From: Natrinema salinisoli
GTDB lineage: Archaea; Halobacteriota; Halobacteria; Halobacteriales; Natrialbaceae
DNA: 64,000 nt
Assembly: GCF_020405205.1 (NCBI RefSeq)
Contig: NZ_CP084469.1
Location: 2,170,001-2,234,000, forward strand
Reading direction: 5' to 3'
Each line of letters starts with the position of its first letter. The stretch's first letter is position 1. Both the position numbers and the translations under genes were made by a program. Shown one piece after another: positions 27,901-62,201 of the stretch. Below the pieces are notes generated by a model that worked only from the letters and a program-made list of their open reading frames with translations, did not search any database and was not told the origin of the DNA.

Positions 27901-28040
27901 GTAAGACGGTGGCGCGCCCCTGTCAGACGCGGCGTGTCTTACGACGAAACCGCCCGACATCGGGCGATTCTCCGTCTCGTCGACGGGTGTAAGACAATCC
28001 GTCTTACGCGAATAGTGGGATGTCCTCCCTAGATAATAAA
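27901..28040 (-). promoter_or_regulatory. cdrS-ftsZ2 promoter with GTAAGAC operator array
   Basis: On the minus strand a TATA box TTTATTATC lies at 28040-28032, placing transcription start near 28009. Directly there is a perfect inverted repeat GTAAGAC-5-GTCTTAC at 27989-28007. Further heptamers occur at 27936-27942 and 27901-27907 within the leader, and one at 28066-28072 upstream. Such inverted repeats are typical for ribbon-helix-helix repressors, and two RHH genes (cdrS, cdrL) flank the region. Binding is inferred, the repeats are seen. Confidence 0.75.
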
Positions 28041-28077
28041 GCTTTCGTCGGACGTGACTTTCTTCGTCTTACACTGG

Positions 28078-28707
28078 TCAGTACTGGGTACCGTTCGACT
28101 CGAGGACATCCGCCGCGGGCGTCCGACGACCACAGCCTGGACAGAACGACCAGTCCGAGCGGATTTCGTCGCCGCAGTCACAGAACAGGCGTCGCGACGC
28201 CTTCTCACCGCAGTTGGGACAGTAGACGTGATTTCCGTTCATGTGATCGCCACACTGGTTGCACTGCACGCCGCCCTCGCCCGCTGCGTCCGCTGGTCCG
28301 TCCGACTGTCTCGACCCCTGATGTCCGTCACTCGTCTCACGCGCGTGGCCGCTGTCGACCCGAACCTGTTCCTCCGATTGGGTCGTCGCCCCCTCGAGCG
28401 AGATCGTGACGTTGACGTCCTGTGGATCGCGCGCTGGGCCCGAATCGTGCGCACGCGAGCGCGCACCGTCGAGTCCGAGCTCCCGAAGCCGGGTCGCGAT
28501 CCGCTCGTCGACCCGTTCGCGAACCAGTTCGTCGATCACGCCCTCGTCGTCACGCTCCGTATCCGACCCCGACGCACTGCTCTGGACCGCACCCCCGTCC
28601 TCGAGATAGGAGCGAAGCGCCTCCCGCATCGCTTCGCTCTTGGAGATCTCGAGCTCCTCGAGTTGCTCGACGAGGTCGTCGTCGGCACGGAACGTGATCT
28701 TGCTCAT
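28078..28707 (-). CDS. cdrL: RHH and double zinc-ribbon protein, CdrL-like
   Basis: A 209-residue protein with an N-terminal ribbon-helix-helix (SKITFRADDDLVEQLEELE..SKSEAMREAL, about 1-40), an acidic disordered middle and a C-terminal double zinc ribbon (CNQCG, YCPNCG, FCDCG, FCPGCG; about 147-192). Gene order next to cdrS-ftsZ2 fits the long cell-division regulator CdrL of haloarchaea. It probably binds the cdrS promoter. It is transcribed in the same direction, but the 196-bp gap with a separate TATA box means an independent cdrS promoter. Confidence 0.85.
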   Translation of the reverse strand: MSKITFRADDDLVEQLEELEISKSEAMREALRSYLEDGGAVQSSASGSDTERDDEGVIDELVRERVDERIATRLRELGLDGARSRAHDSGPARDPQDVNVTISLEGATTQSEEQVRVDSGHARETSDGHQGSRQSDGPADAAGEGGVQCNQCGDHMNGNHVYCPNCGEKASRRLFCDCGDEIRSDWSFCPGCGRRTPAADVLESNGTQY

Positions 28708-28832
28708 AGGCGAGTTACCCCCGTATTATCACGCCTCCTTTATCAATCATTCTGCCGTTCGTAGTTCTTGACACGTCAGTGTCGTCCCGAATAATAACCC
28801 TTATGTGCACCACGGCGGCTACGTTTGAGTGC

Positions 28833-28906
28833 CCGCCCTTAGCTCAGACTGGTAGAGCAGTCGACTGTAGATCGACTTGCCCCCCGTTCAAATCGGGGAG
28901 GGCGGA
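28833..28906 (+). tRNA. tRNA-Tyr (GTA)
   Basis: A complete cloverleaf: acceptor CCGCCCT/AGGGCGG, D-arm GCTC..GAGC, anticodon stem GTCGA/TCGAC with loop CTGTAGA (anticodon GTA at 28867-28869), T-arm CCCCG-TTCAAAT-CGGGG and discriminator A at 28906. C1-G72 with A73 is the archaeal tRNA-Tyr identity set. There is no intron and no encoded CCA. It marks the left edge of an AT-richer island, as tRNA genes often do. Confidence 0.97.
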
Positions 28907-28908
28907 CT

Positions 28909-29163
28909 TCCTACCCTTGCTATCCAGATTCACAGGATAGCGCCCGATTCGGCGCTATACTGCTCCGAAAACGCCTCGGGGTTCACTTGGTCATCAAGTC
29001 CGGTCGTAGCCATCTGGTAGTTCATCGTGGCCGAAGAGGGGAGCGCGCTTAGACCTTAGCGTAGTAGATGAGTCGTGTTGAATGAGTCTTGACTCCATGA
29101 GACTCAGCGATTTCCCAAAGGAATAGGTTTCCTGATAGAGAGGACCGAATCAGAGACTAACAT
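28909..29163. other. Left flank of the island, no clear gene
   Basis: About 255 bp downstream of tRNA-Tyr where base composition changes from GC-rich to AT-richer. A 31-codon leftward frame (28930-29025, beginning MNYQMATTGLDDQVNPEAF) might be the tail or relic of an island gene, but cannot be assigned. A 12-bp sequence AGCGCGCTTAGA at 29042 recurs at 30372. An A/T-rich promoter-like stretch precedes the gene at 29164. Confidence 0.45.
29042..29053 (+). repeat. 12-bp direct repeat, left copy
   Basis: AGCGCGCTTAGA, identical to 30372-30383, the two copies bracketing the membrane nuclease gene. The sequence contains the palindrome AGCGCGCT. It may mark a 1.3-kb inserted module, or be coincidence. 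Confidence 0.4.
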
Positions 29164-30261
29164 ATGGGTGACGAAGACGGAGATAATGTTGGTCTACTCC
29201 ACGAGGAAGCCAAAGGGGTAGTCGACAAGCAACTCTCCAGAACTGAGACCATAGAATCCCGCGCCGGGCGGATTCTCCGAGTCACAATGCTTACTGTTGG
29301 TGTGATTCTCACCGCTCTATCTATTGGTATCCGCTGGACTCAGAATTCCCAGCAGTCATTAACGCAAATCCCGGACAACGGAGCAGCTGTCTATTTTACC
29401 GGAGCCCTTTTCGCGATAGGTGGTGCCGCGATTTTCTCTGCTATGGCATATACAGCGGCTCCCATTCGATTTGGACCAAGTGGTCGAGATATCCGTCGAC
29501 TCTTTGAGAATGAGGGAGAGAGTGCAACCAGAAAGGAACTTCTCGCTGGCTATTCGCTGTGGAGCGATATCAATCGAGAGCCACTCGAAAAGGGCCGGTT
29601 TTGGATTACCAGCAGTATGGCTTGTATCGCTCTGGCTCCTATCTATATCGGTGTTGGCTTGCTGATTTCATTTACCCCTATTTTCCCGTCAGCTTTAGCA
29701 CACTCTCTCGTGGCGATAATAATCGCGGTCTGTATGGGTTGGGTCATGGGAATCCACTCTACTTTTCGGTCATACAGATATGCGAAGTGGCAGTCCGATG
29801 AAGCCCAAGATGACTTCTGGAAAGTGATGGACGAGAGACAGATTGAGCACGTTTTAGAAGGTGCATCATTCGGTGGGGAAAAAGAAGAGAACCAGAGCAA
29901 ACTTCGCCAGATGGTCTTAGGCGAGGCGTTGGAAAACTGGATATCCCATCACTTTGACGAGATAGTCCCCGATTTTGATAGAGTCGTTGAATCTCAGGAG
30001 ATTGGTGGTAGGGGAGTTGATTTCATCGTGACTCAGAAAGACGGGACACAAGTCGGGGTAGAGGCAAAAACCCGAGTTGACCGACGAACTGCTGAAGAAA
30101 TTACAAAAATACTAAAGGATTCATTTGACCCTCAGGCGGACCTCTACGTAGTCGGTTTTGACTTTAGGGAGTCTGGTCGTCAAATCTTGGAGAAAAGAGA
30201 TGATATTCATCTCAAGGAAATCGATAAAGAGCGTGTGAAGAATTTTTCAAATCAAGAATAG
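29164..30261 (+). CDS. Membrane-anchored PD-(D/E)XK nuclease-like protein (candidate defence gene)
   Basis: A 365-residue protein with two pairs of membrane helices (about 38-57, 76-98, 147-170, 179-199) followed by a cytosolic C-terminal domain. That domain has the restriction-endonuclease core: GRGVDFIV with D286 and GVEAKTRV with E300 and K302, matching D-(x)n-ExK of Mrr/PD-(D/E)XK enzymes. The N-terminal helical pairs resemble SLATT/2TM effector arrangements only loosely. AT-richer than the core genome, it lies right after tRNA-Tyr. A role in anti-phage or anti-plasmid defence is inferred. Confidence 0.7.
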   Translation: MGDEDGDNVGLLHEEAKGVVDKQLSRTETIESRAGRILRVTMLTVGVILTALSIGIRWTQNSQQSLTQIPDNGAAVYFTGALFAIGGAAIFSAMAYTAAPIRFGPSGRDIRRLFENEGESATRKELLAGYSLWSDINREPLEKGRFWITSSMACIALAPIYIGVGLLISFTPIFPSALAHSLVAIIIAVCMGWVMGIHSTFRSYRYAKWQSDEAQDDFWKVMDERQIEHVLEGASFGGEKEENQSKLRQMVLGEALENWISHHFDEIVPDFDRVVESQEIGGRGVDFIVTQKDGTQVGVEAKTRVDRRTAEEITKILKDSFDPQADLYVVGFDFRESGRQILEKRDDIHLKEIDKERVKNFSNQE

Positions 30262-30371
30262 CAACTTGTCAATTAGATATTTCTCTCGCTCCTCTTCACT
30301 CCTTTCAGGCGATTTTAGAACTATCGAGTAGACGATGTTTTCTACTATTGAATCGCTTCCTAGCGGCGAAT

Positions 30372-30383
30372 AGCGCGCTTAGA
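30372..30383 (+). repeat. 12-bp direct repeat, right copy
   Basis: Second copy of AGCGCGCTTAGA (first at 29042-29053), situated in the 177-bp gap between the two convergent island genes. Confidence 0.4.
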
Positions 30384-30438
30384 ATAGTTCCTTATTCGGA
30401 ATCAGACTCATACTCTCCCCAGGCATCCAATTCCCAAG

Positions 30439-32271
30439 CTATGCGAGAGACCACCTGTCCAGGATAAATGGAACTAAATCCCCGTCCTCACGCCGTGTAA
30501 TGGCTTCTTCTCCCCATTCATCTCTATCAGCTACTTTATCCCTATTTAGCCGATAACTCGAGTTCGCAAACTCTGGTTGTTTTTCGTCGAACAGCTTGTT
30601 CTGTAGATCCTCTTTGTTGTACTCGTCGCTAACAAAGGTAAGGTTCCCAAGGCGGTGAATCAGTGAGTCGTAATCCTCCTCATCAATTGGATACCGCACC
30701 GGCGTTTGGGGCCAAATATGCTCAACCTCGTAGTTATCCCCCATGACTGCACCAAAGTCAGGAACATCTGGCTCACCATCTTCTTCGCATAGGTGTTTTT
30801 CGTAGAAGTACAGTAGATACCGGATTTGCTTGCTCTGCTGGTCGCTGTAGAAGTCTTGACTCTTCAGAACACGTCGGAAGGAGTCATCATCTTCGAAATC
30901 AGCAACTGCCTCCGAAATCTTCTCTCGCCAAGTTTGTATGGAGGCCTCTGAAGTAGTGTCCCGAGCGATTCTATGGAATCTTGGGCGTTTAGCATGACTC
31001 GGATGGCCACCAATTGCGTACAGGCGAATGATTGCGGTTTCAATGATCTCAAGTAGACTTTTGATCGAATTCGGCTCTTCTTCGTAGCCTTCCCAGGCTA
31101 GGATTAGGAGAGGATAGAATCTTGCTACGTTGCCAAGTGTGTATATCCGCCGTAGGCGATCATGAACCACATCTTCATCGGTGTGATTGAGAAGACGATC
31201 TAAATTCTGGAAAGCAAGTTCTAGTGAGTTGATGTAATCCTTGATAAGTGCTATGCACTGATCCCTATCTTCCTGGTGGGTTTGCCGAATTTGACTCTTC
31301 AAATTGTCCAGTAGAGACTCGCCTTGGTATTCGTCTCGCGTCCCCCAATCGGCATAGGTAATGTAGTGATACCGTTGTATCCCGTCTTCCGATAGATTAT
31401 CTCGTTTAGCATCCTCAATAGACTGCATATGCTGGTAGATTCGAGCAAAGGAGGACTGGACCTGGTTGATGGTCCTCTTGTAGGATCCGTCATCTTCCTC
31501 AGCAGAGCGATAGGTCATATACATAAGGAAGCTCTTCGTGCGCTCCAGCATAGAGAGGCTCTTTCCCCGGTCGTTTTCGGATTCGAAGATCCGTGTCGCC
31601 TTCTCCTTGTCCTCCGCTCCCACGTAGTGGATCATCAATTCCAAGCTAGATATCTGCTTTCGAATTTTCTGGCATTCCTCGACAAAGCCCTCTGATGTTG
31701 TTTCTTCACGGAGAACCCTGAATTGTTCCCGAAAGAAATCCTTGGCTTGGGCTAATTTCCTCTCAGAGGGGGTATCTGGGTCGATATACTCCTTCTTCTC
31801 AACTACATATTCATGGAAGAAACCCCCATCTCCTTTCTGTAAATGAAGCCGGTACAAACCCTCATCCACGAGCCACTTTTGCTCGATCTCCGTTATTGAC
31901 TTCCTCCACTCTTCAGGTTCATCTAGACATTCGACGGCTACGCCAAGTTCTTCCAACATGATTTGGAGAAGGATCGATATAGTTGTGATCCGTTGCTGGC
32001 CGTCGATTATGTGATGCTTCTCCTGTTCCTCCGCCATCACCCGTTCAGGTGTTTTATTTGCGGCTTCCGATGTCTCTTGAAGGATAATAGTACCAAAATA
32101 GTGGTCCTTCTCAGGAGGAAGCGTTTGTAAATCAGTCCAGAGGTCTTCTAATTGTTCTCTGTCCCATGAGTAGTATCGCTGGTATTCCGGTACCTCAAAG
32201 AAGAAACCCTCAAATAACTCTCCTAATGATTCTGGTCCTGATTGTCGCCTAGCAGCCATACAGTAACTCAT
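30439..32271 (-). CDS. GmrSD-type DUF262/HNH (DUF1524) protein
   Basis: A 610-residue single-chain type IV restriction-like protein. The N-terminal DUF262 domain (ParB/Srx fold) has VPEYQRYYSW and the signature IIDGQQRITT (DGQQR at 90-94). The C-terminal DUF1524 HNH nuclease has VEHIWPQTP near 517 and HRLGNLTFVS. This is the GmrS-GmrD combination that cuts modified DNA in characterised systems. The frame runs 128 codons further up; the MSYCMAARRQ start at 32271 has a TATA-like AATAAACTTATC about 20-25 bp upstream. An alternative ATG is at 32259. Confidence 0.88.
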   Translation of the reverse strand: MSYCMAARRQSGPESLGELFEGFFFEVPEYQRYYSWDREQLEDLWTDLQTLPPEKDHYFGTIILQETSEAANKTPERVMAEEQEKHHIIDGQQRITTISILLQIMLEELGVAVECLDEPEEWRKSITEIEQKWLVDEGLYRLHLQKGDGGFFHEYVVEKKEYIDPDTPSERKLAQAKDFFREQFRVLREETTSEGFVEECQKIRKQISSLELMIHYVGAEDKEKATRIFESENDRGKSLSMLERTKSFLMYMTYRSAEEDDGSYKRTINQVQSSFARIYQHMQSIEDAKRDNLSEDGIQRYHYITYADWGTRDEYQGESLLDNLKSQIRQTHQEDRDQCIALIKDYINSLELAFQNLDRLLNHTDEDVVHDRLRRIYTLGNVARFYPLLILAWEGYEEEPNSIKSLLEIIETAIIRLYAIGGHPSHAKRPRFHRIARDTTSEASIQTWREKISEAVADFEDDDSFRRVLKSQDFYSDQQSKQIRYLLYFYEKHLCEEDGEPDVPDFGAVMGDNYEVEHIWPQTPVRYPIDEEDYDSLIHRLGNLTFVSDEYNKEDLQNKLFDEKQPEFANSSYRLNRDKVADRDEWGEEAITRREDGDLVPFILDRWSLA

Positions 32272-32651
32272 TGAAGTGAATCTGATAAGTTTATTGATGG
32301 CCACGTTTTGATAGATAACCGAGAACAGATTGAGGAGGAATTTGAAGTGAAAGACATCTTCGATTGGTGAAAAAGAGCTCGGATGGCGTTGGTGGATACC
32401 TCTACTATCTTGATGAGGAACCAGAGAACTCGTAAGATGACTGGAAGAAAAATGCAGAGGGGTAATGGAGACCTCTGAAGAGTGGTTCAGGGCGACGGAA
32501 ACCGTCCGTAATTGAATCCAAAAAAGAGGTTGTGCTTCTAATACTTCCTCAGCGCCATCCTTAGCGGTACTCATGGAGATTCGAAGATTCCCTGTTGCCA
32601 GCGGGAGAGTATGGGCTCTAAGTGGCGAGGAGGAGCGAGAAGGGCAATAGA
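32272..32651 (-). other. Spacer, possibly with a decayed fragment of the neighbouring gene
   Basis: About 380 bp between the DUF262 gene and the wHTH/HEPN-like gene. It stays open in the DUF262 frame but has no family features. A segment at 32537-32580 (plus strand CTTCTAATACTTCCTCAGCG) resembles CTTCTAATAACTCCTCAACG at 33150 inside the neighbour; the encoded peptides are AKDGAEEVLEAQPL and GKDGVEELLEDGAL. This suggests an old partial duplication of the winged-helix end. A TATA-like element for the DUF262 gene lies near 32285-32295. Confidence 0.45.
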
Positions 32652-33431
32652 TCAATCTGAGGAGTTATTCGAGTTCTGGACTCCTTTCCAGACCTCGTAG
32701 ATGACCTCGGCCAAGTGAGTAGCGTCGTCAGATAGCGCCTCTACTTCTCCTTCCTCAAAATCGACCCGAATAGAGTGCGCTCCCTTGTTCCCCTTCTCTT
32801 TCAGGTCACGGATGTCCTCCACCATCTCTCGGTCCAAACCCTCCTTAGTGAATCGCTTAAGATCCGGAACTCCGATTTTGAGATTGTTAAGAAGTTCATC
32901 AAAGCTGTAGTGTCGCTGGTTCTCTTGGTCAAAGAACATTTGGGTGTTTTCTCCCGAATATTCCCCTCTAAGGATCTCAAAGACCAGATTCTCGAAGAAT
33001 TTTCGAGTGAGAACCATCGCTCCGTCGTAGATGTGATAGCGGTATGATTCGTTAATGTCCTCGATCAACTTCTCATAGCGATGCTCCTCAAAGATATTAG
33101 AGTCGATGAACCGCTCATCTTCGTTCCGAGGAGTGTCGAGAGCGCCATCTTCTAATAACTCCTCAACGCCGTCCTTACCGTCATGGGTCAGGATATAACT
33201 GTTCCCGTTTGATTCAGATATCCAATCTCCCTTGAGACGCGAGAAATAGGAAGATACACCACTCGTACTGACGGCAGAGCGAGAGTTCCGGATAACCTCC
33301 TTCACCTCTGCTTGGGTTACGCCTCCAGTCGTCCCCTCTTCTGTGTTCTCAAGATAGTAGATGAGGAGGGCGACTTCCTCCTTCTGTCCGGCATCATCGT
33401 CAAAATGGTCGATAAGGTAGTCAACGTCCAT
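32652..33431 (-). CDS. Winged-helix plus HEPN/DUF4145-like protein
   Basis: A 259-residue protein. The first 95 residues look like a winged helix (SSYFSRLKGDWISES..SYILTHDGKDGVEELL). The C-terminal half is helical with RYHIYDGAMVLTRKFFENLVFEILRGEY and a KEKGNKGAHS motif near 215-222, as in DUF4145/HEPN-like domains where such a G-N-x-x-A-H precedes the last helices. HEPN proteins often act as RNases in defence or toxin systems; activity here is not proven. It follows the frameshifted gene by 3 bp, so they are an operon. Confidence 0.65.
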   Translation of the reverse strand: MDVDYLIDHFDDDAGQKEEVALLIYYLENTEEGTTGGVTQAEVKEVIRNSRSAVSTSGVSSYFSRLKGDWISESNGNSYILTHDGKDGVEELLEDGALDTPRNEDERFIDSNIFEEHRYEKLIEDINESYRYHIYDGAMVLTRKFFENLVFEILRGEYSGENTQMFFDQENQRHYSFDELLNNLKIGVPDLKRFTKEGLDREMVEDIRDLKEKGNKGAHSIRVDFEEGEVEALSDDATHLAEVIYEVWKGVQNSNNSSD

Positions 33432-33434
33432 TGC

Positions 33435-34093
33435 TTATCCGTCCAGCTTTTCATCCAGCTCCTGAATGAGGTCCCGAGCGTGATTCTTACCTTTCCCTAC
33501 TAAGTAGATGTTCGAACCATCGGATTCGAACCAATCACTCGCATCATTTGAGAAAGCTTGACCCATCGCATCCCTTCTTTCGGTTTCAACATCCGAAGAA
33601 ACAAGAGCCTGATTTAGCCTCTCGTAGTCAATTCTCTTCTCATCGAGGCACTCCTCCCATACGTATAGAAGGAGGGATGATGCCTGCGCTTGTCTCTGAT
33701 TTCTGGCGCTACCAAGGGTAAGAACCCCATCCTCGAAGTGGTACATATTCAGACTGGGTACGCCTTCTTCATCATCTGGTAATTCAAAGAACTGCTCGAG
33801 TGTTCCTTCATCACACCCGTTTTGGTAGAGAGAGAGGCAAATTCAGTACTGACGTCCTTAGACTCCTGCGATGGTGGTGACGGCTTTGAGTCTTCCCAGC
33901 CGCTTAGAGGTGCCTGTGTTCCTCCATCTTCGGATACAGTATTCGCTTCTGGCGTCGGAAGATTCGAGAGAGTTTCCTTCTCTTCTCCGATGAACTCAAC
34001 GAACTCGATTAATTCGTCTTGAAGCTCTTCTCGGTTCTCACCCGTGAATTCGGCGTCGAGAGGTCCGTAATCGAGAGTGAGTGTAATTTCCAT
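33435..34093 (-). pseudogene. Island gene interrupted by a 2-bp shift at a CT repeat
   Basis: The frame from ATG 34093 (MEITLTLDYGPLDAEF) reads well up to TEFASL near 33833, then leaves frame and stops at 33749. A second frame (33435 to about 33830) carries on with GCDEGTLEQFFELPDDEEGVP and MYHFEDGVLTLGSARN. The switch lies on (CT)5, seen as AG x5 at 33829-33838. Removing one CT unit restores one 218-residue protein, A-S-L-Y-Q-N-G. So it is either phase-variable by slippage or dead. No family is recognised; the C-terminal part looks like a small winged helix. Confidence 0.75.
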
Positions 34094-34160
34094 GTGATAT
34101 GCTATTTCTCCTCACTATAACATCATATTTCTTACGCTGAAAGCTGCGAGAAGAGTCAGC

Positions 34161-34553
34161 TTAGATTCCGTCGAGGTAGCCTCGCCGTTGCTCGACCTTC
34201 ACCTCCTCTGTCCGTCAGTCATAGTGCTTATCGAGAACCTCCTGCCCCACATCTATCTAGTCGGAGACGACCTTCTTGGGCACGTCCTCGGTCAGGAAAT
34301 GGGTGATGGCTCTTCTCCGGATTGAATGGGGACTGACGCTCGAAGGGCACTTGCTACGATATCCGTATTTGGTCACCTCGCATTCCCGTTCTCGTCGATC
34401 ATGCGGGCAATGGTCCCCGTAGTAGCAGGGGCGAGTGACTGTATAGACCCCGGCGACCTCGTTCGAGCGGCGATCACCTCGTCGGTTCGGATTCGGAGCT
34501 TCGCAGGGAGACTCTCGGGTCGAAATAGCGAGTGCAGGGTCTACGAACAGCAC
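34161..34553 (-). pseudogene. Tyrosine integrase remnant (XerC/D type)
   Basis: The frame encodes the C-terminal part of a haloarchaeal phage-type integrase: TRPCYYGDHCPHDRRERECE, SKCPSSVSPHSIRRRAITH (box II H-x-x-R) and DVPKKVVSD. It then hits TAG at 34259 but continues in the same frame as IDVGQEVLDKHYD with the catalytic tyrosine, hits TGA at 34217 and ends EEVKVEQRRGYLDGI at TAA 34163. The N-terminal catalytic arginine region is absent. Thus two nonsense changes and a 5' truncation have killed it. It marks the right side of the tRNA-Tyr island. Confidence 0.88.
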
Positions 34554-34617
34554 GGCTGGAGGTGTGGTCGTTTAAAAAAACCGAAGTCGGTAGTCGTCGC
34601 TGTGAGCGACGGGTGTG

Positions 34618-34827
34618 TTACTCTTGGCGAACGACGTTCGCCGCGCGGGGTCCCTTGGGTGAGGACTCGATATCGAACTCGACCTCCGTCCCTTCTGTCA
34701 GATCCTCGCCGCCGACGTCCTCCATGTGGAAGAAGACGTCCTCGTCGTCGTCGAGATCGCCGTCGTCAGTCGAAATGAAACCGTAGCCGCCTGTGTCGTT
34801 GAAGAAATCAACTTTACCGTGTGCCAT
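34618..34827 (-). CDS. cspA: Cold shock protein, CspA family
   Basis: A 69-residue cold-shock domain protein that binds single-stranded nucleic acids. It starts MAHGKVDFFNDTGGYGFI, containing RNP1-like GYGFI and RNP2-like DVFFHMEDV, with an acidic DDGDLDDDED insertion between. The ATG at 34827 gives the family start. A paralogue lies at 62242. Both have the same promoter layout (see separate entries). It borders the integrase relic. Confidence 0.93.
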   Translation of the reverse strand: MAHGKVDFFNDTGGYGFISTDDGDLDDDEDVFFHMEDVGGEDLTEGTEVEFDIESSPKGPRAANVVRQE

Positions 34828-34867
34828 TACAAACGAATGTAGATCCGGATGCGGGATAACCCTTCCG
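34828..34867 (-). promoter_or_regulatory. Promoter of the first cold-shock gene
   Basis: Minus strand: CGGAAG (34867-34862), two bases, TTATCCC (34859-34853) and a TTCGTTTGTAATGGC block over the start codon. The first T of TTATCCC is 32 bp before the A of the ATG. The other csp gene has the same elements with exactly the same distances, which argues for a conserved, short-leader promoter. Confidence 0.65.
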
Positions 34868-35091
34868 AAATCCGAGTTACAACCACCATTCTCGGCCATT
34901 CGGACACGCACTTACCGCGAGTATCTTGCGGGCACGAGGGTCCAGCGGACGTGGGATCGTCGCATTCACGCACCGATCTCGAGCAGTGTGTCGTATGGTA
35001 ATCACTGCAGGGCAATGCCCACCCGATCGCACGACAACTGTGCGGTCAGTGAGTGAATAGTTGCAGAGACTGCTAACGCTCATCTTCGTGG

Positions 35092-36306
35092 TCAGATGCC
35101 GAAGACGGGAACGAACCGGAAGGTCAGGTACGCACCCCCCGTCGCGATCACCGGGACGACGTTCTGCATCAGGACGACTCGAGCGGTCGTCGCCGGATTG
35201 AACAGATCCGCTGCGCTTGGGATGTCGGCGGGGGTCTCTTCGCCGATCGGCGGAATCGACTCGCCCTCCTCGTCGGCGGTCAGTGCGCCGACCGAAACCG
35301 GTGTCCGTTCCTCGCCGCGCACGGCTTCCGAAACCGTGACCGGGCGGGTCGCGCGACCCCATCCGAGGCCGATGATGGACATCGTCGCGATGATGACGAA
35401 GCTCGCAGGAATGCCGATAAACGACAGGAACGTGACGAGCGTGGCGCTCACGGTCGCGACGACGATGGCGGCCGTCAGCGGGAGCTCGGTGAGGTCGTTT
35501 CCCATCGTCTCGAGGGTGCGTCGGGCGATGGTGAACGTCCCGATACCGACGGCGAGACAGCCGATGATGATTGCGGGGTTCATCTCGATTGCACCGCTGC
35601 CGACCAGCGGGGCGATCGCGTTCGCGATGTTCGAGGTGCCGGAACTGAACGCCATCACACAGCCGATCACGATGACGGTCGTCACGCCGCCGAGTTCGCG
35701 CCGGGTCGTGGTCTGACTCGGAACGGGCAGTGGGACGATTCTGGAGCGATCGAGCTCGAGCAGGGGGCCCTCGCTCCGCACCATCGCGACCCGCCGGTTG
35801 AGGAACGCGTAGAAGTACCGGCCGATGATCAGCGAGACCCAGAAGCCGATGAAGGGGGCGACGATCCACCAGATGGCGATTTCGCCCATAACGGTAAGGT
35901 TGAGTTCCCCGCCCGCGAACGCGAGCCCCGCGATCGCACCGACGGCCGTCATCGACGTCGAGGCCGGGACCCCGAAGAAGTTGCCGACGAACAGCGCCAG
36001 CCCGATGAAAAAGAGGACGCCGATACTGGCTTCCAGCGTGAAGATGCCGGGATCGGTGACCAGATCGCGCCCGAGCGTGTCGACGACGCGGCGGCCGATC
36101 GTCCACGCGCCGACGAAGAAGAAGACGGTCATCAGTGCCGCAGCGCCCGACTTGGATATTGCGTCGGCGCCGACCGCCGGGCCGAACGCCGGTCCCGTGG
36201 TAGCGCCGCCGATGTTGTACCCGACGAAGATCGCGACGAAGACGCCGACGAAAAGCAGCACCGTGACCATACTATCTACTCGCTGACGTACGATGGTGAG
36301 GCCCAT
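35092..36306 (-). CDS. PiT-family inorganic phosphate transporter
   Basis: A 404-residue membrane permease with two PiT half-repeats: GYNIGGATTGPAFGPAVGADAIS near the N-terminus and FSSGTSNIANAIAPLVGSGAI in the middle. About ten helices, and a hydrophilic loop of about 45 residues before the last helix. It probably couples phosphate uptake to cations. An SD-like GGAGG lies 9 bp upstream of the ATG at 36306; the other possible start is 36270. The substrate (phosphate) is by family. Confidence 0.88.
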   Translation of the reverse strand: MGLTIVRQRVDSMVTVLLFVGVFVAIFVGYNIGGATTGPAFGPAVGADAISKSGAAALMTVFFFVGAWTIGRRVVDTLGRDLVTDPGIFTLEASIGVLFFIGLALFVGNFFGVPASTSMTAVGAIAGLAFAGGELNLTVMGEIAIWWIVAPFIGFWVSLIIGRYFYAFLNRRVAMVRSEGPLLELDRSRIVPLPVPSQTTTRRELGGVTTVIVIGCVMAFSSGTSNIANAIAPLVGSGAIEMNPAIIIGCLAVGIGTFTIARRTLETMGNDLTELPLTAAIVVATVSATLVTFLSFIGIPASFVIIATMSIIGLGWGRATRPVTVSEAVRGEERTPVSVGALTADEEGESIPPIGEETPADIPSAADLFNPATTARVVLMQNVVPVIATGGAYLTFRFVPVFGI

Positions 36307-57380: not shown

Positions 57381-58067
57381 CTACTGGCGTCGGTCGTCTT
57401 CGAGAATCGCGTCCATCAGCTTCGTCTGGGCGGCCGCCAGATGTTCGGTGAACGTCGACCTGGCGACGCCGAGTTCGTCGGCGACGTCCGTCGCGTTCGC
57501 ACCCTTGGGATAGTCGAAGTAGCCCATCTCGTGGGCCGTCTCGAGGATCTCCCGTTGTCTGCTCGTGAGTTCGTCCCTGTCGACGACGACCGGATCGGCC
57601 GAGCTATCCTCGTGATCCTGTGAGAGTTCCTCGACGATGACGCCGTCGAAGTACGCGCGCAGTTCGTCGACGATCTCGGCGATTTCGGCCAGCTCGAGCG
57701 TGCGAAAGGAGAGGAGCAGCGAGCCGTTCTGGGCACGGACCGACGAGAGCGGGGTTCCCGTTCGCTCGATGATTTCGCAGGCGCAGTCGGCCGTGCCATC
57801 GCGTTCGAATCGGTAGATCGACTCCCGGTCGTTGGACTGGACCGGCGTCAACTCGACGTCGTACTCCCCCTCGATCGAGGCGTCGGCGGAGACGCCGAAC
57901 TCCTCGACGACCGTTCCGTCCGCCGTCGTCTGCGACGACCGAGAGACGGAGTCGACCGGTTCGTCGGCACGCGCGGAGACGTCGGCCACCGGACAGTCCC
58001 CCGGTTCGTCGACGACGACCGTTGCACGAAAGTCCGTCATATCGGTCCGTACGATGACACGCAGCAT
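57381..58067 (-). CDS. Bat-type HTH_10 transcription regulator
   Basis: A 228-residue regulator. The N-terminal 150 residues form the variable sensor part with DCACEIIERTGTPLSSVRAQNG. The HTH_10 domain starts at LTSRQREILETAHEMGYFDYPKG and contains LGVARSTFTEHLAAAQTKLMD. The ATG at 58067 gives MLRVIVRTDMTDFRA; an alternative at 58040 (MTDFRATVVV) is equally possible. It is transcribed in parallel with, and downstream of, the sulfite reductase pair. Confidence 0.85.
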   Translation of the reverse strand: MLRVIVRTDMTDFRATVVVDEPGDCPVADVSARADEPVDSVSRSSQTTADGTVVEEFGVSADASIEGEYDVELTPVQSNDRESIYRFERDGTADCACEIIERTGTPLSSVRAQNGSLLLSFRTLELAEIAEIVDELRAYFDGVIVEELSQDHEDSSADPVVVDRDELTSRQREILETAHEMGYFDYPKGANATDVADELGVARSTFTEHLAAAQTKLMDAILEDDRRQ

Positions 58068-58170: not shown

Positions 58171-59415
58171 TCAACACCACTCCTCGTACTGGTGGACGCG
58201 GGCCGGGTTCAGCGGTTCTGGCTCGCGATCCGTCCCGTCGTACGCCTCGCGGTGCTCCTCGTACGAGATCCCAACGGGCTCCTCGGGGTCGAACTTCCGC
58301 GGGAGGATCGATTCCGCGTGTCGGCGGTTCCAGTCAGCCAGCTTCTCGAGGGCCGCCGGGCGATCGATCGCCGTCGTCTCGAGCTCGGTCGCGGCCTGCG
58401 TCCACGCGGCGTCGCCGGTCTCAGTGCGGACGATCGCGGTCGTATACCCGTCCTCGCTGCCGACGTTGCCGACGCTGATGTCGGCCGCGTCGCCGACGAA
58501 GTCCGCGCACTCGTCGCAGCCGCGCAGTCCCGCCGCGTCGAACGTGTCGACGTCCGCCTCGAGGAGCGTCTCGCCGGTGTCGTCGACCGCACGGAGCCGT
58601 CCTTCGCTGATGTCGAGCGTCTCGACGGCCGCGGGATCGACGTCGAACGACTCGAGGCGCGAGAGCAGGCGGCTGTGCTCGAAGCTACGGGTACACATCA
58701 GGGCGAGCGTGAGCGCGATGGGGTCGGCCGGCTCGTGGTCGTAGCGGTCGAGCGCGGTGGCTCCCTGGATCATACACGGAGTACCGACCAGCGCGAGGTC
58801 CGGATCGTCGGACTCGATATCGCCCTCCGCGAGCAGCGTCTCGATCTGGCCCAGCCCCATCGTCTGATTGTAGATGCTGCCGCCGGCCGCGAGCAGGTCC
58901 TCGCGGGAGGTCGCCAGGAACGCCTCGCCGCGGAGCGGTTCGTCCTCGCGCTCTCGGGCGACGATCGCCCCGTCCAGCTCGCCGGCCTCGATCAGTTCCG
59001 CGAGAAGCGCGGTCACGACGCCGCCGTCCTGACCGGTAGCCGCGGCTTCCTCGTCCGCCCGCGCGGCGTAGGTGGCCGGCTCCTCGAGCCCGCGTTCCTC
59101 CCGCGCGAGCTCGAGGTGACGCTCGTATCGAAGCCCGCTGCGGGGACAGAAGTCCCAGCAGCGCGAGCAACCGGTACACATCTTGACGAGGGTGGGTCGC
59201 CCCTCGTCCTCGTCGATGCCGATCGAGTCGGAGGGACAGGCGGCGACACAGGAGGCACACTGGATACAGCGGTCGGCCTCGATGACGGCCTCGTCCAGAT
59301 CGCGGAACCAGATCTTGCCGGGGGCTTCGGCGACGTCGCGGTCCTGCTCGCGCGGATCGTTACCGACGCCCTTGACGCCCTGCTGAGGGACGCCCGGCTT
59401 GTGTGTACCGCTCAT
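58171..59415 (-). CDS. FrhB/FpoF-like F420H2 dehydrogenase subunit with two 4Fe-4S clusters
   Basis: A 414-residue iron-sulfur flavoprotein. The N-terminal part has two ferredoxin motifs, C50-C53-C56-C60 (CIQCASCVAAC) and C80-C83-C86-C90 (CTGCSRCWDFC). The FrhB domains follow with VGTPCMIQG and GCDECADFVGD cysteines. FrhB-type subunits oxidise F420H2 and pass electrons to iron-sulfur centres. It begins directly after the stop of the siroheme reductase gene, with GGAGGTGA 5 bp before its ATG, so it is probably that enzyme's electron-input subunit. Confidence 0.88.
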   Translation of the reverse strand: MSGTHKPGVPQQGVKGVGNDPREQDRDVAEAPGKIWFRDLDEAVIEADRCIQCASCVAACPSDSIGIDEDEGRPTLVKMCTGCSRCWDFCPRSGLRYERHLELAREERGLEEPATYAARADEEAAATGQDGGVVTALLAELIEAGELDGAIVAREREDEPLRGEAFLATSREDLLAAGGSIYNQTMGLGQIETLLAEGDIESDDPDLALVGTPCMIQGATALDRYDHEPADPIALTLALMCTRSFEHSRLLSRLESFDVDPAAVETLDISEGRLRAVDDTGETLLEADVDTFDAAGLRGCDECADFVGDAADISVGNVGSEDGYTTAIVRTETGDAAWTQAATELETTAIDRPAALEKLADWNRRHAESILPRKFDPEEPVGISYEEHREAYDGTDREPEPLNPARVHQYEEWC

Positions 59416-61821
59416 TCAGCTCACCTCCGTGCCGATCGCGGGCGGGTCGCGCGCCGGCCGGTCCGTGACGATCTCCCGGAGATCCGCGTTCGACGTGCGG
59501 CGAGTCCACTCGGTGAACGACTCGCCGGGCTCGCTGTCGGCGTCGTAGGCGCGCATCGTCGCTTTGACGACCCCAGGGACGTCGTCGATCGGGATCTTCC
59601 CGACGAGCCAGTCGATGAACTCGTCGTTCCCGAGGTCGCCGCCCAGACCGAGGTCGGCCGCGCGCCCGGCGTCGTAATCGTCGCGGTAGACCTCCCCCCG
59701 CAGGCCGAAATCGCCCAGCTGCGGTTGCGCACAGGACGCCGAACAGCCCGACATGTGGATCCGGATCGCCTCGTGATCGTCGGCGATCCCGGCCGCCTCG
59801 GCCCAGTCGTCCAACTCGCGGGCCCACCTGATCGCCCGGTTCTTCGTCTCGATGATCCCGTAGTTACAGAACTCCCGCCCCGTGCAGGTGACGATCCCGC
59901 GCGTGAACGGCCCCGGATCGGGGCTGTACCGCTCGAGGAGCGGGTCCTCGAGAATCGCTTCGAGGCCGTCGTCGGTCAGATGCGGCACGAGGACGTTCTG
60001 GTTCGGCGTCAGGCGCAGTTCGCCGTCGCCGAAGTCGTCGCTCAGGCCGGCGAGGGCGGCGAACTCGTCACCGCCCATTCGGCCCGTCGGGACGTTCAGA
60101 CCCACGTACGAGCGGCCGTCGGCTTGCTCGTGGACGCCGACGTGGTCGCCCCGGTAGTCCATCGTCAGGGTCTCGTCGGGTTCGACGAACGCGAAGTCGG
60201 CGTAGGACTCGAGTTCCTCGCGGAACCCCTCGGGGCCGAACTCGGCGACGAGGAAGCGCAGGCGGTTGACCGCGGTGTCGAGGTAGCTGCCGTGGTCCAC
60301 GAACAGGTCGGCCATCGCGGCAACGAGGTCGTCGACCTGATCGGGTTCGACGAACAGATCGATGTCGCTCGCGACGCGGGGACCGTCGGAGAGCCCGCCA
60401 CCGACTCGCGCGACGAACCCCTCGCGGCCGTCTTTCCGGGCGGGCGTCAGTCCGAGATCCTGGATGCCCGAGCGGGCGCAGTCCTCGTGACAGCCCGTCA
60501 CGCTGACCTTGAACTTCCGGGGGAGGTTCGCGTAGTGTCGATCGCCGAGGAATCGCTGACTCACCCGTTCGACGACGGGTTGGATATCGACGGTTTCGTC
60601 GGGATCCAGTCCGGCGGCCGGGCAGCCCACCACGTTGCGCACCGAGTTCCCGCAGGCCTGCATCGTCGAGAGCCCGACCGCGTCGTAGCGGTCCCAGATT
60701 TCGGCGATGTCCTCGATTTCGATCCAGTGCATCTGGACGTCCTGGCGCGTCGTCACGTCGAGGTAGCCGTCGCCGAAGACGGGGTTCTGGTCGGGTCCGC
60801 CGTACGCCTCCGGAGCGCGGGCGAAGTCGTCGGCCACCTCGCCGATGGTACGAGCCTGTTCGGCAGTGAGGATACCGCCGGGAGCGCGGGTCCGTAGCAT
60901 GAAGTATCCCCGCTGCTTCTGGTGGTAGAGCCCGATCAGCTTCAGCCGACCGAGCACGTCCTCCCCCAGGTCGTCGACCATCGCCTCGAAGCCGCCGTTG
61001 TCCGCGTAGTGGCGGACCTGCGCCTGCAATTCGACGGGGTCCCACTCGGGCGCTTCGGCGCGCACCCAGTCGGTCAGGCTCCCCTCGTAGAACGAGACGT
61101 CCTCGTAACCCAGGTGTCGGAGGGTGACGAACGTGTGACTGAGCCGTCGCGCCGTGTTGCAGTAGAGGACGATCCGTTCGTCGGGCGTGAGCCCGCGCTC
61201 GGCGAGCAGTTCCTCGAGCGTCGCTTCGTCTCTGAGTCGGCCCTCCTCGAGCAGGTCCTCCCAGTCGAGGTGGACGGCACCCGGAACCCGCGACTGCTCG
61301 TACTCGGCGGCGGTACGGGTGTCGACCACGACGGCGTCGCCCTCGACGGCGGCTTCGACCGTCTCGCGGTCGGCGATCGGGGCGTCCGCTCGTAGCTTCG
61401 CTTCATAGGGAGTCGGATCGGGAGACGGACGGTCCGTGCTGAGCGATCCGTCCTCGCCGTCGCGCCACGCCTCGAGGCCGCCATCGAGCAGCGAGAGGCG
61501 GCCCTCGTGGCCGTAGACGAGGGCGGTCAGCAGAAACCGAGCCGCGAGCGCGCCGCCGTCATCGCCGTAGGCGACCACGGTGTCGTCGCGCTCGATGCCG
61601 GCCGCGGACAGGAGGGCCGCGAAGTCGTCGGCGGTCGGAAGTTTGCCGTCGGCGACGCTGCTCGGATCCCGAAACCGATCGGCCGGGACGTTGACCGCAC
61701 CCGGAAGGTGTCCCAGTTCTTCGTAGTCGCGTTCCTCGCGGACGTCGACGACGACCACGGACTCCGCGTCGCAGTGGGCCTCGAGCCACGACGGCGAGAC
61801 GATGTCGAGCTCGGTACTCAC
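59416..61821 (-). CDS. Fusion of two rhodanese domains with a siroheme sulfite/nitrite reductase
   Basis: An 801-residue fusion. Rhodanese 1 (about 5-130) lacks the catalytic Cys (VVAYGDDGG), rhodanese 2 (about 150-260) has C221 in LYCNTARRLS. From about 265 on it is a ferredoxin-type sulfite/nitrite reductase: TTRQDVQMHWIE, LSTMQACGNSVRNVVGCP and the 4Fe-4S/siroheme cysteines C646-x5-C652 and C693-x3-C697. Separate proteins usually hold these modules. With the FrhB-like partner it suggests F420H2-driven reduction of sulfite, possibly from sulfane sulfur handled by the rhodanese. Nitrite cannot be excluded. Confidence 0.9.
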   Translation of the reverse strand: MSTELDIVSPSWLEAHCDAESVVVVDVREERDYEELGHLPGAVNVPADRFRDPSSVADGKLPTADDFAALLSAAGIERDDTVVAYGDDGGALAARFLLTALVYGHEGRLSLLDGGLEAWRDGEDGSLSTDRPSPDPTPYEAKLRADAPIADRETVEAAVEGDAVVVDTRTAAEYEQSRVPGAVHLDWEDLLEEGRLRDEATLEELLAERGLTPDERIVLYCNTARRLSHTFVTLRHLGYEDVSFYEGSLTDWVRAEAPEWDPVELQAQVRHYADNGGFEAMVDDLGEDVLGRLKLIGLYHQKQRGYFMLRTRAPGGILTAEQARTIGEVADDFARAPEAYGGPDQNPVFGDGYLDVTTRQDVQMHWIEIEDIAEIWDRYDAVGLSTMQACGNSVRNVVGCPAAGLDPDETVDIQPVVERVSQRFLGDRHYANLPRKFKVSVTGCHEDCARSGIQDLGLTPARKDGREGFVARVGGGLSDGPRVASDIDLFVEPDQVDDLVAAMADLFVDHGSYLDTAVNRLRFLVAEFGPEGFREELESYADFAFVEPDETLTMDYRGDHVGVHEQADGRSYVGLNVPTGRMGGDEFAALAGLSDDFGDGELRLTPNQNVLVPHLTDDGLEAILEDPLLERYSPDPGPFTRGIVTCTGREFCNYGIIETKNRAIRWARELDDWAEAAGIADDHEAIRIHMSGCSASCAQPQLGDFGLRGEVYRDDYDAGRAADLGLGGDLGNDEFIDWLVGKIPIDDVPGVVKATMRAYDADSEPGESFTEWTRRTSNADLREIVTDRPARDPPAIGTEVS

Positions 61822-62201
61822 GGGCGATCACCCGCGTCGTGATGGTCGGTATCCCAGTCCAATCGCGGCTCGAGCGGAACCCGACTCCCGCTACTCTGTC
61901 GGATATCCGATACTGTCTCGGTCATATCGTAGCTGGCGATAGTGACCGAGACCCCTTTCAGCTACGCGTACGGGTAAGCAGTACCGTAGCTCCCGAACGA
62001 CGGCAGGCGGCCGTCGGCGTTGGTGACAATCTATTTACCCTTCGTATGGACCGCCTTTATTCGTCGCTCGAGACGGAACGAACCGCTGGGAGGTCCTGAC
62101 GGGAGAACAGCTGCTGACGGGGATCGTCGGGGAATACGGCAACAAATTCCGGAGAAACGGCGAACCGGAAGCAACGCCGACGGTCGTGGTACCACGACCC
62201 T
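61822..62201. other. Intergenic region upstream of the sulfite reductase operon and second csp gene
   Basis: About 380 bp, without a credible gene. A TATTTACCC stretch near 62032 and T-rich DNA follow. It must contain the promoter of the leftward siroheme reductase operon, though no clear TATA box stands out close to 61821. The csp promoter begins at 62202. Confidence 0.5.

Follow-up and report, generated by a model that had tools for sequence, protein, structure and literature searches.

What use haloarchaea make of coenzyme F420 and how they form sulfide are both stated to be open, the former being described as 'currently enigmatic' (PMC8305020), while 'little is known' of the latter (PMC3402447). 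These two questions meet at a pair of adjacent genes of Natrinema salinisoli, located on the stretch of 64,000 nucleotides analyzed here (contig NZ_CP084469.1, positions 2,170,001 to 2,234,000 of the forward strand; hereafter the window). The first gene encodes two rhodanese domains fused to a siroheme reductase and the second an FrhB-like flavoprotein; such genes recall aFsr-alpha and aFsr-beta, the names given by Susanti and Mukhopadhyay (2012; PMC3448663) to a putative haloarchaeal F420H2-dependent assimilatory sulfite reductase (aFsr). Which reaction, then, would a rhodanese-bearing pair of this kind catalyze? We propose, with a probability of roughly 0.55, that it is a two-gene, translationally coupled operon encoding an assimilatory sulfite reductase that draws its electrons from F420H2 and whose catalytic subunit has a thiosulfate sulfurtransferase (TST) tethered to it, a reading that, like the other functional statements below, is drawn from sequence and genomic context. 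The operon would then be one testable answer to both questions. Its elements are the following (window coordinates; aSiR, assimilatory sulfite reductase):

59416..61821, minus strand: rhodanese-rhodanese-siroheme reductase fusion of 801 aa with a GTG start, aFsr-alpha-like with an N-terminal tandem rhodanese (open reading frame, Pfam, AlphaFold2 (AF2) model)
61432..61803, minus strand: rhodanese domain A, spanning residues 7-130 and inactive, as it lacks the active-site Cys (C17 lies elsewhere)
61054..61374, minus strand: rhodanese domain B, residues 150-256, with the active loop LYC(221)NTARRLSHT
59464..61038, minus strand: two-repeat NirA/aSiR-type siroheme-4Fe4S reductase, residues 262-786, with R310, R395, K436 and K438 and the cluster ligands C646, C652, C693 and C697
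58171..59415, minus strand: FrhB/Fsr-N/FpoF-like flavoprotein of 414 aa, aFsr-beta-like (open reading frame, Pfam, family and fold matches)
59131..59289, minus strand: N-terminal ferredoxin domain of this partner, with two 4Fe-4S sites (C50, C53, C56, C60; C80, C83, C86, C90)
58363..59076, minus strand: F420H2-oxidase (FrhB) domain of the partner, with an FAD helix (GQDGG, 128-132), the third 4Fe-4S site (C214/C241/C300/C303), the turn ISEGR at 269-273 and an isoalloxazine loop (DISVGNVGS, 312-320)

An earlier note on this DNA had described the fusion and its FrhB-like neighbor at these positions, and both the open reading frames and Pfam agree. The GTG start of the fusion sits after an in-frame stop, and all Pfam matches exceed the curated cut-offs: Rhodanese in two stretches (129.5 bits), two NIR_SIR (158 bits) and NIR_SIR_ferr on the fusion; a Fer4 dicluster, FrhB_FdhB_N and FrhB_FdhB_C (112.7 bits) on the partner. 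The ATG of the partner immediately follows the TGA of the fusion (gap of 0 nt in the window), as the note had read it, and the reductase and the FrhB-like half are two separate open reading frames, whereas methanogen Fsr is a single chain. C221, C646, C652, C693 and C697 are likewise where the note had placed them and are invariant in 31/31 orthologues. Its account of a first rhodanese without Cys is accurate for the catalytic residue but not for the whole domain, and the two 4Fe-4S motifs that it assigned to the partner have to be raised to three sites, since C214, C241, C300 and C303 align with FrhB's own cluster ligands (C104/134/192/195; PMC3591093).

Among 392 haloarchaeal genomes, the full fusion was found at 31 loci in 30 genomes belonging to four family codes, and carriers include by name Natrinema, Natrarchaeobius, Natronoglomus, Natronobiforma, Natronomonas, Halorhabdus and Halovenus. 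At every one of the 31 loci an FrhB-like gene directly follows, an identity across four family codes that argues against chance, and its ATG lies -11 to +3 nt from the fusion stop (-1 to +1 at most loci), a proximity which points to translational coupling. The co-occurrence check proposed in the earlier note thus has a clear outcome: a fusion lacking the FrhB-like gene was never seen in this set, and the two genes are an obligate pair. At a match threshold of E 1e-15, FrhB-like genes were found in 133/392 genomes; the unfused sulfite reductases (SiRs) sampled, matching at E < 1e-150, have an FrhB-like neighbor in 11/11 cases, and in our named locus collection the partner is present at 78/80 loci, the other two (L226, L234) lying near a locus end.

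The two proteins also share their history. In the SiR tree, all FrhB-paired enzymes group together (SH-aLRT 99), apart from the FrhB-less haloarchaeal SiRs, and within this clade the fusions form one subclade (99), sister to the haloarchaeal unfused and the bacterial pairs; the FrhB tree recovers the same three groups, both trees being quick ones built without bootstrap. From these groupings, the fusion stands as a third lineage of the pair, of old origin, and has not arisen recently from the haloarchaeal aFsr. Moreover, SiR and FrhB distance matrices correlate (r 0.91 over the whole set and 0.87 when restricted to the fusion clade; Mantel 0/1000), and the fusion and its FrhB-like partner co-evolve. 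A strict replacement of FrhB-less by FrhB-paired SiRs was considered and rejected: it is a tendency only within the window's family, where an FrhB-less SiR is retained in 20/64 FrhB-positive and 21/32 FrhB-negative genomes (Fisher p 0.002; tally made by hand with a cut at E 1e-255), and elsewhere both often co-occur. Haloarchaeal sulfite-type reductases whose retrieved flanks contain no FrhB partner (L112-L139) carry mostly KWK and are presumably ferredoxin-dependent. Among unfused haloarchaeal pairs, the FrhB-like partners (L009:8320-10147 and others) have frames about 120-270 residues longer N-terminally than the window's protein.

Regarding the reductase half, the best fold match of the AF2 model (mean pLDDT, the predicted confidence, of 85 for the fusion) is Mycobacterium tuberculosis NirA (PDB 1ZJ8; Z 42.3, root-mean-square deviation 2.8, 518 aligned), followed in order by plant nitrite reductase (NiR), maize SiR and CysI. 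It is a two-repeat assimilatory enzyme of the NirA/aSiR type and is not Dsr-like, and the reading of the pair as a split Fsr, which the comparison in the earlier note suggests, is rejected on this ground, the reductase half of Fsr being Dsr-like. Features of an assimilatory siroheme sulfite reductase are present, namely the four cluster Cys and the Arg, Arg, Lys, Lys set for sulfite/anion binding (R310, R395, K436, K438, placed by alignment to tobacco NiR), a set conserved across sulfite reductases including Fsr (PMC10229431). The partner is of the FrhB family and not a CysJ-type FAD/FMN subunit, CysJ defining the CysIJ subtype only. In the haloarchaeal alignment, every FrhB-paired reductase shows K-x-K and the NirAs show K-x-N, as does this genome's own NirA (G000:C1:2909676-2910902). 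The fusion is very probably a sulfite reductase.

Could it nevertheless be a nitrite reductase, as its annotation as NirA would have it? The closest PDB chains by E-value are indeed plant NiRs and the top NCBIfam match is ferredoxin-nitrite reductase, but this match reaches 369 bits against a cut-off of 594, and the fusion has K438 at the position of tobacco N226, where plant NiR has Asn. In addition, the genome possesses a separate K-x-N NirA, encoded beside an open reading frame that resembles assimilatory nitrate reductase, and M. tuberculosis NirA, which tops the structural matches, is in fact a sulfite reductase (Schnell 2005, cited in PMC11237513). Nitrite as the substrate is disfavored by K438 and by the score below cut-off, and we regard it as highly improbable.

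The FrhB-like protein is very likely the electron-input subunit of the fusion. Its nearest families, by sequence and by fold, are FrhB, FpoF and Fsr-N; its AF2 model has a pLDDT of 62 with the ferredoxin domain unresolved, and the residue-level statements made here take nothing from this model. Conserved features are the helix that binds flavin adenine dinucleotide (FAD), the FrhB-type 4Fe-4S residues and the ring-contact loop of the F420 site. As anticipated in the earlier note, the host appears equipped to make F420, the genome encoding CofD (345 bits, cut-off 257) as well as CofE. In Rubrobacter and other Actinobacteria, the unfused pair lies within clusters of the order cofD-cofC-cofE-cysH-SiR-FrhB-(~116 aa)-sat-apsK-TauE (L178, L189, L208, and, with some genes uncalled or different, L181, L186, L207 and L217), at about 0.7-9.7 kb of their loci. 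In L189, CofD, CofC, CofE, CysH, Sat and ApsK all exceed the NCBIfam cut-offs and Pfam concurs, and CofE was found in 10/12 bacterial genomes with the pair, the two without it being metagenome-assembled genomes. These clusters support F420H2 as donor for the FrhB-paired family, and F420H2 is a likely donor to the fusion's partner as well. The clusters also extend the 2012 proposal to a bacterial sulfate-assimilation operon, and our literature search found no report of F420 synthesis and sulfate assimilation joined in this way.

The fold of the rhodanese half is that of a full tandem TST, its matches including M. tuberculosis CysA2/3 (Z 28.8, to CysA2) and Azotobacter vinelandii RhdA (Z 28.3), and the module shows the pattern of tandem-domain thiosulfate sulfurtransferases, in which only the second of two domains has the active-site Cys. 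The loop LYCNTARRLS is identical across all 31 fusions examined, and its basic character (CNTARR) is in keeping with thiosulfate as donor, although suggestive only; on balance, thiosulfate is slightly more likely than not to be the substrate of this module. Elsewhere in the genome there are an unfused aFsr pair (G000:C1:3223813-3227134; L009) and, ~9-10 kb from it, two free-standing rhodaneses (3235963-3237824; L146), one of which (G000:C1:3237069), about 10 kb away, is a tandem rhodanese ~52% identical to the fused one with the same CNTARR loop.

Sulfur physiology gives a setting to such an activity. The APS/PAPS route (adenylyl and phosphoadenylyl sulfate) is stated to be absent from sequenced haloarchaea, for which conversion of thiosulfate to sulfite by a TST and then of sulfite to sulfide by a SiR has been proposed as the work of separate enzymes (PMC3402447). 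A Sat-type ATP sulfurylase was not found in 23 fusion genomes, and a PAPS_reduct relative of ~325 aa is present in all fusion genomes checked; these PAPS_reduct/CysD-like proteins (L153-L164) are 67-75% identical across haloarchaeal genomes without Sat-type ATP sulfurylase. Besides the fusion, the present genome has just two siroheme reductases, an unfused aFsr and NirA, and it lacks any FrhB-less sulfite reductase. In another genome, G010, the fusion is the sole siroheme reductase (L094:7555-15413) and lies beside a CysG N-terminal type dehydrogenase, a uroporphyrinogen-III methyltransferase, a CbiX chelatase and a divergent PAPS_reduct-family gene, a neighborhood consistent with an assimilatory SiR.

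Taken as a mechanism, C221 of domain B would take the sulfane sulfur of thiosulfate, or of another sulfane donor, and release sulfite. Sulfite would bind at R310/R395/K436/K438, a site assigned by alignment, and be reduced at the siroheme-4Fe4S center by six electrons to sulfide. These electrons would pass from F420H2 to FAD and on to the reductase by way of the three 4Fe-4S clusters in its FrhB-like partner, which would act as CysJ does for CysI. The sulfide would be used to make cysteine, in hosts for which absence of the classical APS/PAPS route has been reported. Conceivably, though this is doubtful, the complex might be an F420H2:thiosulfate reductase complete in itself, in which the rhodanese passes sulfite straight to the fused siroheme site; if true, both sulfurs of thiosulfate would be assimilated without sulfate activation, by a route not known to have been described as one enzyme.

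Several points weigh against the proposed function. The FrhB family can also use ferredoxin, as does HCAR, an FrhB-fold member found among the fold matches of the partner. The turn proposed to hold the F420 phosphate, IGKGK in FrhB (PMC3591093), reads ISEGR in the window's partner and is poorly conserved across the fusion orthologues, so that of the F420/flavin residues which the earlier note wished to see verified, the FAD helix and the ring-contact loop are kept and the phosphate-turn lysines are lost. The FsrII of anaerobic methanotrophic archaea (ANME), of close design, reduces nitrite with F420H2 but not sulfite or thiosulfate (PMC9295563). In most fusion neighborhoods the pair is accompanied by no conserved sulfur gene (G010 being an exception), and our literature search found no biochemistry for any aFsr. 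Finally, Natrinema J7-2 grows with sulfate as sole sulfur source (PMC3402447), and the genus therefore does not depend on thiosulfate. The altered turn and the HCAR match would speak for ferredoxin or NAD(P)H as the donor in the fusion clade. We hold this to be unlikely: the sister bacterial lineage, which retains basic residues at the turn (I-x-R-G-K/R), sits in F420 biosynthesis operons, the F420-ring loop and FAD/4Fe-4S residues are kept in the fusion partners, and a flavoprotein would be superfluous if ferredoxin fed the reductase directly, as it presumably does in FrhB-less haloarchaeal SiRs. Moreover, ANME FsrII works with F420H2 although its F420 site is altered and negatively charged (PMC9295563), so a degraded phosphate turn lowers the confidence in F420 but does not refute it.

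The main rival for the role of the rhodanese is action on the product side, where it would receive zero-valent sulfur (S0) or persulfide made by the reductase from free sulfite and hand it to cysteine synthase, to tRNA/SAMP thiolation or to Fe-S assembly. CxTxxR-type rhodanese loops, such as that of RhdA, can hold persulfides, and the free-standing CNTARR enzyme of this genome could split thiosulfate without the fusion. Such a role is possible because aSiRs were reported in 2026 to release S0 first, cysteine synthases favoring persulfide (PMC13188885). However, with the APS/PAPS route reported as lacking in haloarchaea (PMC3402447) and no Sat found, a source of sulfite is needed, and a TST on the same chain is the simplest candidate. 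We consider product-side action improbable and retain a sulfite reductase with a tethered thiosulfate sulfurtransferase as the preferred reading.

One further gene adjoins the pair:

57381..58067, minus strand: DmsR_N/HTH_10 regulator (Pfam), a candidate regulator or a case of mere synteny

Members of its cluster (228-aa representative) occur at 13 loci and lie downstream of the pair at 12 of them, and the order sepF-pair-regulator-citrate synthase in the window's family looks like synteny. Upstream, a perfect 12-bp palindrome, TCGGATATCCGA (window 61899-61910), lies 78-89 bp 5' of the GTG of the fusion and is a possible operator; it is common to one near relative only. Far from the pair, positions 28001-36000 of the window have a GC content of 51-54% against ~65% elsewhere, possibly a mobile or foreign segment.

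How does this operon compare with known systems? Like the fusion pair, aFsr joins an aSiR-type subunit gene to an Fsr-N/FpoF-like gene and falls in the same clade, but it has no rhodanese, its haloarchaeal FrhB partner bears a long N-terminal extension, and the fusion is a separate sister lineage. Of 529 NirA proteins in a survey of Halobacteria, 19 were fused to a rhodanese, and a part in sulfur metabolism was proposed for them (mSystems 2024); these are very likely the same family as the window's fusion, and the available text of the survey draws no link to an FrhB-like partner, F420 or sulfite-type residues (PMC11237513). The unfused pair had thus already been proposed, and the rhodanese-NirA fusions had already been counted; nevertheless, as far as their available parts go, neither PMC3448663 nor PMC11237513 joins fusion, partner and donor. 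What is new is that fusion and FrhB-like gene form an obligate, co-evolving pair, that the fusion is a separate ancient lineage with an active site of the sulfite type, and that genes for F420 synthesis and sulfate assimilation are clustered in Actinobacteria. The interpretation in the earlier note is partly supported: the pairing, the co-evolution, the sulfite-type site and the F420 genes speak for it, but the reductase is no part of a split Fsr, the pairing had been proposed in 2012 and the F420-phosphate lysines are not conserved in the fusion clade.

Methanogen Fsr (group I, PDB 7NP8/7NPA) shares with the pair an FrhB-like half holding two ferredoxin clusters, FAD and one further cluster, and with the fusion the four sulfite-binding residues, but it is one chain with a Dsr-like single-repeat half and an inserted ferredoxin domain, in contrast to two chains with a two-repeat aSiR and rhodaneses. 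M. tuberculosis NirA has the fold of the fusion's reductase but is ferredoxin-dependent, with neither rhodanese nor FrhB partner. CysA2/3 and RhdA have, like the fusion, a dead N domain and an active C domain; they are free-standing, whereas the fused rhodanese is tethered and carries the loop CNTARR. The fusion physically joins the TST and SiR steps, until now proposed as separate enzymes, and the actinobacterial clusters provide independent evidence for FrhB-paired reductases as F420 enzymes.

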